Positions 56,233 through 58,492 of a stretch of 64,000 nucleotides of DNA are shown here, in pieces. Under the pieces are notes generated by a model. That model did no database searches. It worked only from the letters and a program-made list of their open reading frames with translations, and was not told the DNA's origin. Origin of the DNA: Enterobacter cloacae complex sp. ECNIH7 (GTDB lineage: Bacteria > Pseudomonadota > Gammaproteobacteria > Enterobacterales > Enterobacteriaceae); assembly GCF_002208095.1 (NCBI RefSeq), contig NZ_CP017990.1:2418001-2482000 (forward strand), in the 5' to 3' direction. Position numbers and translations under genes: made by a program. Numbering within the stretch: the stretch's first letter is position 1; the number at the start of each line of letters is the position of its first letter.

Positions 56233-56282
56233 TAAGGTTGTTTAGCGTTCGTTAAGACAACAGGTGTTAGGTTATATGAGAT

Positions 56283-56376
56283 CCGCTGCCCGGCCATGGA
56301 GTGTCGGGACGTAGAGACCAAAACACAAATCTATCCATGCAAGCATTTACCGCCATTTTTTGGCGGTTTTTTTTTG
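56283..56376 (+). ncRNA. Possible small RNA or 3'-UTR with strong terminator
   Basis: A hairpin CCGCC/GGCGG (56350-56366) is followed by nine Ts, a form common to Hfq-bound small RNAs. About 95 bases upstream there is a candidate -35 TTAAGA and -10-like TATATG. The segment starts about 50 bases after the exported-protein gene, so it may be just the end of that transcript. Support is structural only. Confidence 0.3.
56350..56375 (+). terminator. Rho-independent terminator with nine Ts
   Basis: Stem CCGCC (56350-56354) with GGCGG (56362-56366), loop of seven, then T x9. It ends either the 55870 transcript or a small RNA. Confidence 0.8.
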
Positions 56377-56396
56377 CGCAGACCGTCGCGATAGGG

Positions 56397-56934
56397 TTAT
56401 GGCATCAGGCGATAATGCGACTGCACCAGGCCCGAAGGGAAGCTGCGGCTTGATACCAGGGTCAAATCAATATCCCGGGACAAGGTTCCGAACAGCGGTT
56501 TTCCCTCCCCCGAGCAGTACAGGTACGGTCGTGATCGCCATATCGGCTACCAGTCCTTCGCGCAGGAACGACTGTATCACCTGTCCGCCATCAAGATAGA
56601 CGCGATGTACGTCCTGCGCAGCGAGATCGTCAAGCACCTCCTTTGGCGTGCGGGATGAAAACTGCACTTTGCCCCTCAGCGCCTCCGGCACGGGCGTATC
56701 GGCCAGCCGTCGCGAGAGCACCAGCACGGGACGATCGTAAGGCCATGCGTCAAAGGTCAGTACCTTCTCATAACTCCCTCGTCCCATCACGATGCAGTCT
56801 TTGTCCGCGATGAACGCCTCATAGCCATGATCTTCCGCCGGATCGTCGCGCTGCAGCAGCCAGTCGATATCGTCATTCTGTCGGGCGATGTAACCATCAA
56901 GACTGACCGCAATAAAAACGTGTGTGGTGACCAT
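56397..56934 (-). pseudogene. RibD/dihydrofolate-reductase-like protein, broken by a one-base frameshift
   Basis: The first 155 codons give a DHFR-like (RibD C-terminal) enzyme: THVFIAVSLDGYIARQNDDI, CIVMGRGSYEKVLTFDAWPY and RVYLDGGQVIQSFLREGLVA. The frame then ends early at 56467 after an odd tail (KTAVRNLVPGY). If one A is dropped from the AAAA (TTTT on the plus strand, 56499-56502) the frame continues GGGKPLFGTL..., LVSSRSFPSGLVQSHYRLMP to a stop at 56397, the proper family C-terminus (about 178 residues). It is a frameshifted gene, a recent mutation or a sequence error. Confidence 0.75.
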
Positions 56935-57044
56935 CAGGTGCTCCGTATTACGAAAATTAAAAAATGAGTCTTCCTCTTAGCGGAGAGGGGCCCCTTTGTA
57001 AACATGTATTCAGAAGCAATAAGACTGTCTTCAGAATAATGACA

Positions 57045-57260
57045 GATTTACAGCGATGCCCTGGTCCGGCTGTAAATCGCCGAAGCGTTTCCGTAAGGCC
57101 GGGGCGAGGCGCAGGGATGCGCCGAGAGGGCGTGGCCTGCAGGGATGCAGGCTCATGCCCGACCCGATAGCCTGAAGGAATAAGCTGAGGGGACCGCGAA
57201 GCGGCGATTTACCGCCGGGAGCCCGGGTCGCCAGGGTGGTGGCGATTGAGCCACCCTGGC
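57045..57260 (+). repeat. Highly structured RNA-like element with alternative helices
   Basis: GATTTACAGC (57045-57054) pairs with GCTGTAAATC (57069-57078), ten perfect pairs. GTAAATCGCCG (57072-57082) alternatively pairs with CGGCGATTTAC (57202-57212), eleven perfect pairs; the two helices share bases and cannot coexist. Inside the long one are hairpin GGCGCA-GGGA-TGCGCC (57108-57123) and a long hairpin 57128-57160 containing GCCTGCA-GGGA-TGCAGGC. CCGC-GAA-GCGG follows at 57194-57204. Outside is GCCAGGGTGG/CCACCCTGGC (57230-57260). Strand and transcription are unproven; the plus strand is listed because of the arrangement. Probably a mobile or dispersed repeat or a structured RNA. Confidence 0.5.
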
Positions 57261-57336
57261 ACGTTCACCGGTTATGTCGTTAAAGAGTAGCAAGGAACAT
57301 AAAGTGAACGGAATGACCACCAGACCCGTATGTTCC

Positions 57337-57370
57337 CCTCACCCCAGCCCTCTCCCACAAGGGAGAGGGA
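57337..57370. repeat. Dispersed hairpin repeat, copy 3
   Basis: CCTCACCCCAG, then CCCTCTCCC (57348-57356), loop ACAA and GGGAGAGGG (57361-57369). It is the reverse orientation of the copy at 43.6 kb. Confidence 0.7.
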
Positions 57371-57411
57371 GTCGTCCGTGCAGGCATTATTTTGTGGGGA
57401 ACCCTCAACCG

Positions 57412-58398
57412 TTAGCGTGCAGTACCCGGACGTGAAAATTGTTTGCGATACTGAGCCGGGGAAAGCGCGAACTGCTGGCGAAAATGATGACGCAGTGTCG
57501 ACGCCTGACCAAACCCGGTCTGTTCAGCGATGCTGTCGATGCTTAACCGGCTGCTTTCCAGATAATCTTTTGCTCTCAGCAGGCGCTCATTGATTAACCA
57601 GCGTGCGGGCGTCGTCCCCGTTGCCGCCTCGAAGCGACGAAGGAAGGTGCGCTGGCTCATTCCGACCCGACGCGCGAGGGAGTCGACGCTGTGCGCCTCT
57701 ATAAGATGCGTGTGCAGAAAATCAAACAGCTGGCCGAGACGCTGGCTTTCCCGCAGCTGGGCTACCGGACGGCTCAGCTGCTGTGGCTGTGAACCATCCC
57801 GGTGAGGGGGAATGACCAGCCGACGCGCCACGCTGTTTGCTGTTTCCATGCCATAATCCCGCCGCACAACGTGCAGACAGAGATCGATTCCCGCCGCGCT
57901 GCCAGCGGACGTCAGAATATCGCCTTCATCCTGGTAGAGTACATCCTCAACCACGTCGATGTCAGGGTAGCGGACTTTCAGCGCGTCAATGTAGCGCCAG
58001 TGCGTCGTCGCTTTGCGGCCGTTCAATAGCCCCGTTGCGGCCAGCACAAACACTCCCGAGCAGATGGAGAGCAGCTGGCATCCTCGCGCGCTGGCCTGGC
58101 GTAGTGCCACGCAGAGCGCGTCCGGAACCGGTGAATCTATCCCCCGCCAGCCGGGAACCACAATCAGGTCCGCAGACGCAAGCAGGCTTAAATCACCATC
58201 GGTAACGATGCGGATCCCGCCTGTTGCCCGAAGTTCACCGTAGTCCACGCTCGCCACCGCAAAACGATACCACTCGTCGCCCAGCTCGGGACGCGGCAGG
58301 CCGAAGATCTCCACCGCCACGCCAAACTCAAAGGTACACAGACCGTCATACGCCAGCACCACCACCTGCGGGCGGGCAATTTGTCTTAAGTTTGTCAT
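57412..58398 (-). CDS. ftrA: GlxA-family regulator FtrA (DJ-1/PfpI plus AraC HTH)
   Basis: About 328 residues from the chosen start. A DJ-1/PfpI-like domain (about 8-180; VVVLAYDGLCTFEFGVAVEI, LLSICSGVFVLAATGLLNGR) with a Cys at the usual nucleophile place (ICSG) is joined to an AraC double helix-turn-helix (about 225-320). The start is uncertain: ATG 58398 gives the family-like N-terminus, with an in-frame alternative at 58431. It is divergent from the rhodanese gene, a pair also known in Klebsiella; name ftrA follows that. Confidence 0.8.
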   Translation of the reverse strand: MTNLRQIARPQVVVLAYDGLCTFEFGVAVEIFGLPRPELGDEWYRFAVASVDYGELRATGGIRIVTDGDLSLLASADLIVVPGWRGIDSPVPDALCVALRQASARGCQLLSICSGVFVLAATGLLNGRKATTHWRYIDALKVRYPDIDVVEDVLYQDEGDILTSAGSAAGIDLCLHVVRRDYGMETANSVARRLVIPPHRDGSQPQQLSRPVAQLRESQRLGQLFDFLHTHLIEAHSVDSLARRVGMSQRTFLRRFEAATGTTPARWLINERLLRAKDYLESSRLSIDSIAEQTGFGQASTLRHHFRQQFALSPAQYRKQFSRPGTAR

Positions 58399-58492
58399 CT
58401 TTTTGCTGTTTTCTGGCATAAGCGAACGCATTCACGGGCTGAATTTGTGGATAGAGTAGTGTTAACACAAACGCCAAAGATGAGGAAGGATC

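Follow-up and report, generated by a model that had tools for sequence, protein, structure and literature searches.

The window analyzed here is a stretch of 64,000 nucleotides from Enterobacter cloacae complex sp. ECNIH7, and all positions without another reference are positions in it. A noncoding repeat element occupies the intergenic region between an open reading frame (ORF) with a RibD_C domain and an ORF with DJ-1/PfpI and AraC-type helix-turn-helix (HTH) domains, and its plus strand is antisense to both of these adjoining genes (Table 1). The initial annotation, made from the sequence alone, had placed a structured element at 57045-57260 and had listed within it a series of stems, including two perfect helices. 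The stems are present, and both helices are perfect at the bases given: 57045-57054 (GATTTACAGC) is the exact complement of 57069-57078 (GCTGTAAATC), and 57072-57082 (GTAAATCGCCG) is the exact complement of 57202-57212 (CGGCGATTTAC). The interval corresponds to the core of the repeat and is too short as its extent, the full length being approximately 57014-57325.

RNA folding of 57035-57275 gave -122 kcal/mol for the plus strand, versus a mean of -97.95 kcal/mol (standard deviation, 5.24; z = -4.59) for shuffled sequences, and none of 200 dinucleotide shuffles was as stable. The opposite strand (z = -4.64) was likewise more stable than all 200 shuffles, so the two strands are not separable by single-sequence energy. 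In the region 56900-57450, a simple consensus scan detected no promoter-like and no terminator-like sites, and a permissive Rfam scan returned two matches only, both far under their gathering scores. Approximately 0.6 kb from the element, an Rfam match to STnc560, a family of Hfq-binding sRNAs, was observed at 56246-56411 on the plus strand (56.4 bits; gathering score, 55).

Table 1. Features of the repeat element and its surroundings in the window
Feature	Position	Strand	Sequence or pairing, and basis
ORF with RibD_C domain	56467-56934	-	One flank of the element
Repeat element (TRIP1-like), full extent	57014-57325	+	Own-genome copies aligned with those of E. coli; borders +/- ~15 bases
Alternative 10-bp hairpin	57045-57078	+	57045-57054 with 57069-57078; complete in the window copy only
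Long closing helix P1, 5' strand	57066-57082	+	CCGGC (57066-57070) and GTAAATCGCCG (57072-57082); fold, pairs kept across copies
Apical hairpin 1	57108-57123	+	Loop CAGGGATG (57112-57119), CsrA-type C[ANGGAN]G; fold, loop conservation
Apical hairpin 2	57135-57152	+	Loop CAGGGATG (57140-57147); fold, loop conservation
P1, 3' strand	57202-57218	+	CGGCGATTTAC (57202-57212) and GCCGG (57214-57218); fold, pairs kept across copies
3' hairpin	57230-57260	+	57230-57239 with 57251-57260; fold, covarying pairs
Terminal stem GTTCAC/GTGAAC	57262-57310	+	57262-57268 with 57304-57310
Flanking palindromic short repeat	57339-57371	.	CCCTCACCC..CCCTCTCCC-ACAA-GGGAGAGGG
ORF with DJ-1/PfpI and AraC-type HTH domains	57412-58431	-	Other flank of the element

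Dispersal of the element and its kinship with TRIP1

One of the two identities offered by the initial annotation, a dispersed repeat with an RNA-like fold, is borne out by copies in multiple genomes and by their covariation. In the genome from which the window derives, a covariance model identified 13 core copies. A sequence search of the same genome gave 15 matches, of which 12 span most of the query, two represent a single copy split by an insert, and one, of 37 bases, is a copy with both ends joined and the core missing. Many copies are fragmentary, copies within one genome are alike, and in the alignment of copies short genus-specific repeats adjoin many of them.

Of the stretches of named genomes that contain an exact 44-base piece of sequence, 15 are of Enterobacter and the sixteenth is of Lelliottia. 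BLAST over the family found matches in 24 of 119 genomes, own genome counted, and the numbers of covariance-model matches in six genomes or records were 13, 9, 7, 30, 28, and 12. Class-wide and family-wide model searches, whose negatives are weak because strict filters were applied and only 9 to 12 candidates were scored per genome, found matches in 12 of 274 genomes (own genome counted) and in 113 of 298 genomes of the family of one genome, G319. This second family is probably Pseudomonadaceae, an assignment made because G319 was the sole genome above the cutoff for RsmY. Among 50,697 phage records, none had a match at an E value of 1e-5.

In E. coli, a match is present in 5375 of 5426 genomes, at a median of 3 places. 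The K-12-type copy is 73.3% identical to the window query over 76% of its 241 bases (E value, 3e-18) and lies between lysO (ybjE) and aqpZ, at approximately 915029-915268 of NC_000913. This is inside TRIP1a as delimited in the excerpts of the TRIP1 report, 915016-915281 (PMC10888264), and hence the window element is homologous to TRIP1. In those excerpts, TRIP1 is an E. coli repeat that has been on record since 1999 with no function assigned (Rudd 1999, cited in Li et al. 2024; PMC10888264), and it is described from E. coli only, at five loci (TRIP1a to TRIP1e), in both orientations and with chromosomal rearrangements (PMC10888264). The window element is likewise intergenic, multicopy, and noncoding, and its predicted fold is stable and branched, the double-Y structure of TRIP1 being compared here by its published description in part. 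By sequence comparison, the window element is almost certainly a TRIP1-type repeat. An identity with the E. coli "RSA" repeat, considered at first, found no support in literature listings, and a text search of published papers for words of the sequence was likewise without result.

Covariation of the fold and the strand that folds

Copies were compared in a 40-copy alignment, from which matches below 120 bits, listed duplicates, and fragments were left out, and in a 31-copy alignment made up of 31 of those 40. With the 31 copies, 96.5% of paired cells can pair, versus 82.1% in shuffles, and when partners were slid by 1 to 3 columns, 33 to 41% of cells pair. Pairing was kept through changes on both sides in 22 of 38 pairs (shuffles, 15.2), with a covariation score of 0.383 (shuffles, 0.125). 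Each of these three values was reached by none of 500 shuffles, and 2 of 500 reached the count of additional pair types; as the copies are related by descent, these shuffles fall short of a strict test. The terminal stem pairs are kept in 33 to 37 of the 40 aligned copies, with a gap in 3 to 4. A covariance check of homologues, which the initial annotation had proposed, finds compensatory changes in the main fold.

When the 3' hairpin is included, the 1978 pair cells contain 41 G-U pairs, 5 A-C pairs, and 114 other mismatches. As a G-U pair becomes A-C on the opposite strand, the large excess of G-U over A-C identifies the plus strand as the folding strand. This fits folding of the plus strand as RNA, and single-stranded DNA is also possible. 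That the fold has been selected as a single strand is highly probable, and we regard the identity and the fold of the element as firm.

Insertion, reversal, and decay of copies

Sequence comparison indicates that the window copy is an insertion missing from a close relative. Locus L053, with an adjoining regulator gene of 97% identity, lacks it, and L055 carries it. Of 30 loci retrieved by means of the regulator gene, just 7 of which share the gene on the far side of the copy, the only ones with a copy are L055 and L052, the window's own locus. At a second orthologous site, 23 loci have both flanks; the element is in place in 4 of them, and of the other 19, 17 by a visual count contain a CCCTCTCC..GGAGAGGG palindrome. 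For the terminal inverted repeats and the target-site duplication of a DNA transposon or MITE, L157 offers a candidate: its insert has the ends TTCCCCA/TGGGGAA and is flanked on each side by a copy of a 23-base palindrome; other copies are too worn to compare. The arrangement resembles an insertion into a target that is palindromic, and the palindrome that flanks the window copy at 57339-57371 is possibly such a target. Palindromes of this CCCTCTCCC..GGGAGAGGG form (also seen in L144 to L167) are characteristic of intergenic ends within this genus.

Copies reversed in place were found both in E. coli (L140 versus L018 and L141 versus L016) and in Enterobacter (L157 versus L144). Inverted pairs of copies are frequent; those approximately 70 to 80 bases apart are present in four Enterobacteriaceae loci (L025, L045, L047, and L050), and the family of G319 also has inverted pairs, spaced wider than in Enterobacteriaceae. 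Locus L034 holds four copies in the same direction at intervals of approximately 640 bases, and matches in the opposite direction lie between them; the search behind this array covered 81 sources rather than every locus of the analysis. Decay is evident in L137, a K-12-lineage copy in which the 5' half, both hairpins included, is missing, and in L147, which has lost one strand of P1. The yegH-asmA site, which carries the repeat in other E. coli, is occupied in strain ERL06-2497 (L139, 282-900) by genes for a RelE/ParE-type toxin and an HTH protein.

The gene context of copies was assigned with a longest-ORF heuristic that left out eight multicopy loci, one locus without flanks, and loci of less than 2,500 bases. 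The 57 single-copy entries comprise 28 convergent, 12 tandem sense, 14 tandem antisense, and 3 divergent contexts; one copy was entered twice, as L049 and as L083, so that the entries represent 56 copies and the convergent ones 27. An avoidance of promoter regions is suggested, and an orientation rule is not. In the own genome, the upstream gene shares the direction of the element in 12 of 13 copies; a rule that places the sense strand in 3' untranslated regions, which we considered, failed on the wider set with its near-equal tandem sense and tandem antisense contexts.

Conservation of two CsrA-type loops

The initial annotation had pointed to two loops of the form bound by CsrA, and this is upheld by the comparison: CAGGGATG occurs twice in the window copy, with a spacing of 28 nt from GGA to GGA, and loops of the C[ANGGAN]G type are conserved across genera. 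The features of a CsrA/RsmA site, a GGA in a hairpin loop and an ANGGAN hexaloop closed by C-G, are found in both hairpins. As given in the excerpts of one survey, the SELEX consensus of CsrA is RUACARGGAUGU, mostly with hexaloops, and ANGGAN is given for RsmE (PMC7652899).

Of 31 copies chosen by BLAST, 30 have the motif CAN(0-1)GGANG in hairpin 1 and 26 have it in hairpin 2. Among 113 distinct model matches, it is present in hairpin 1 of 99 and in hairpin 2 of 80, the corresponding numbers for the strict 8-mer CANGGANG being 93 and 55; the 33 matches whose hairpin 2 is without the motif count against CsrA binding. When genomes were grouped, with four E. coli strains pooled as one, at least one copy with the motif was present in 30 of 36 groups for hairpin 1 and in 26 for hairpin 2; the 6 and 10 groups with no such copy again count against it. 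Variation among the eight loop positions is highest at positions 3 and 7 in either hairpin, and the flanking stems vary freely. These two are the free positions of the CsrA/RsmE motif, and the loops thus vary mainly where CsrA tolerates variation.

Model R1, the source of most copies, had seen the loops, and a loop-masked model was therefore searched as a control. Apart from the own genome, it detected ten copies in 4 of 368 genomes, under strict filters that make its negatives weak as well. The motif occupies hairpin 1 in six of these copies, which come from three of the four genomes, and is missing there in the four copies of the remaining genome, G269. In the family of G319, the motif is present in both hairpins of all 43 distinct copies examined, which are a best-scoring sample from the 30 best-match loci, collected with the loop-trained model. 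A csrA gene was found in each of 15 genomes tested, including G269 and G386, whose copies are without the loops, so that the presence of csrA does not discriminate. The copies in these two genomes (L120, L126, and L130 in G269; L122 and L127 in G386) are distant relatives with the same outer fold in which the GGA loops are missing. In L228 and L229 (genomes G631 and G645), the twin-hairpin module (model positions 30-94) stands alone in another setting, as if it were a portable unit. Copies L014, in the own genome, and L110:2138-2352 (-) are interrupted by another repeat module with a CAGGGATG hairpin of its own.

The stem of hairpin 1 is long and GC-rich, and this counts against binding, in that a very stable structure is possibly disadvantageous for CsrA according to the excerpts of the survey cited above (PMC7652899). 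Judged from the loops, we give about even odds that a protein of the CsrA family would bind the element when it is transcribed; an effect on cellular CsrA is conceivable and appears rather doubtful. The excerpts of four articles (PMC5864184, PMC7652899, PMC3056050, and PMC4666352) gave no lead to CsrA with repeats of this kind, which is not proof of absence in print.

Other explanations of the fold and the loops

A tentative explanation deserving serious consideration is that the fold serves movement only, with the hairpins, as single-stranded DNA or RNA, being recognized by some mobilizing enzyme and the likeness to CsrA sites being due to convergence. The element has moved over evolutionary time, its surroundings are palindromic, and it forms inverted pairs and arrays, all of which would be expected of such an element, and its decay in place fits selection on moving copies and not on each resident copy. 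However, no enzyme or autonomous relative was met in the course of an analysis that did not search for one systematically, the variable loop positions are those tolerated by CsrA, and the G-U pairs favor RNA, although G-T pairs are possible in DNA.

It is unlikely that the element is a worn repeat with no present function whose fold and loops derive from common ancestry, gene conversion, and recent spread. Such an origin would account for the likeness of copies within a genome, for the many fragments, and for the free orientation, but both the two-sided pair changes across genera and the constancy of the loop letters next to stems that vary freely call for selection, at least during spread.

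The initial annotation had further read the two perfect helices as mutually exclusive, as in a riboswitch, with compensatory conservation expected in both. The two are indeed perfect in the window copy, and this is what speaks for a riboswitch-like cis-regulator. The long-range helix has at least 7 contiguous pairs in 30 of 33 aligned rows, whereas the competing hairpin is complete, with 10 bp, in only one of the 33, the window copy, and has 3 to 7 bp in the other 32 rows (4 to 7 bp in the 12 other own-genome copies). The switch is therefore not conserved: pairing is kept across copies in the long-range helix and not in its alternative. Copies are also dispersed beside unrelated genes with no rule of gene context, and any dedicated cis-acting RNA is disfavored because the scan of 56900-57450 detected no promoter- or terminator-like sites, both orientations occur at the same site, and the element is antisense to both neighbors; a riboswitch is thus very improbable. 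Equally improbable is a stand-alone HEARO or omega-RNA-like element of an IscB-type system, which would be similar in size and dispersal, as RF02033 had no match in 56900-57450 at E values up to 10 and none in the 119 family genomes, own genome included, the latter result being weak because control genomes were also without a match.

A proposed role and comparison with known systems

The explanation that we favor, with a probability of roughly 50% for the statement as a whole, is that of a mobile, noncoding repeat of the TRIP1 kind with a conserved plus-strand fold that binds CsrA when transcribed. The plus-strand RNA is predicted to fold with a long closing helix, two apical C[ANGGAN]G hairpins, and two 3' stems. 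As no promoter is visible, RNA of the element would be expected from read-through at the 3' ends of adjoining genes, and if the plus strand is transcribed, each of its two loops would be expected to occupy one of the two RNA-binding faces of a CsrA/RsmA dimer. Jointly, the copies would constitute scattered CsrA-binding sites that might act as a decoy or as a tag on the host transcript. Several observations count against this explanation: the scan showed no promoter-like site, the direction of copies follows no rule relative to genes and differs even at a single site, and copies decay, some to the point that both hairpins are gone.

This raises the more speculative possibility of a gammaproteobacterial superfamily of mobile intergenic repeats, from Enterobacteriaceae to probably Pseudomonadaceae, with a conserved twin-loop CsrA/Rsm binding module, whose read-through copies would form a decentralized, evolvable CsrA sponge and whose spread CsrA may control. 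If the loops are real CsrA sites, each landing of the mobile repeat adds sites for a global regulator, and the copy number (7 to 30 in six genomes or records) could set the level of free CsrA.

CsrB/CsrC and RsmY/RsmZ are dedicated single-locus sRNAs with their own promoters and terminators and with more than one GGA-loop hairpin per molecule. The element resembles these sponges in its several hairpins with GGA in the loop and differs from them in having two sites only and in being a dispersed repeat with no visible promoter; a promoter and a terminator of its own, as in CsrB-type sponges, were not found by the simple consensus scan of 56900-57450. REP/BIME and ERIC are dispersed, intergenic palindromic repeats that are often located near the 3' ends of genes. 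The element is likewise dispersed, intergenic, and palindromic, but it has another sequence, a larger size, and a branched fold with two CsrA-type loops.

Among the closest known systems is TRIP1 of E. coli, with which, in the excerpts of its report, the element shares homologous sequence, an intergenic location, a high GC content, a predicted double-Y RNA fold, the occurrence of both orientations at one locus, and internal deletions (PMC10888264), whereas the Enterobacter copy carries genus-specific flanks. A term search of the TRIP1 report did not return the words CsrA, GGA, Enterobacter, or Klebsiella (PMC10888264), and the twin CsrA-type loops, absent from that report and from the literature surveyed as far as these sources were available, are an addition to what is described for TRIP1. 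In excerpts of a study of Pseudomonas putida, pull-downs of RsmA, RsmE, and RsmI include intergenic RNAs beside copies of ISPpu8, and the Rsm targets include a long palindromic region that is a possible insertion site of ISPpu8 (PMC7937890). These targets of strain KT2440 resemble the element in being intergenic and, in one case, a long palindromic region (PMC7937890), and by this analogy a kinship with the repeat may be taken as a lead only; inverted pairs of the element would be long palindromes.
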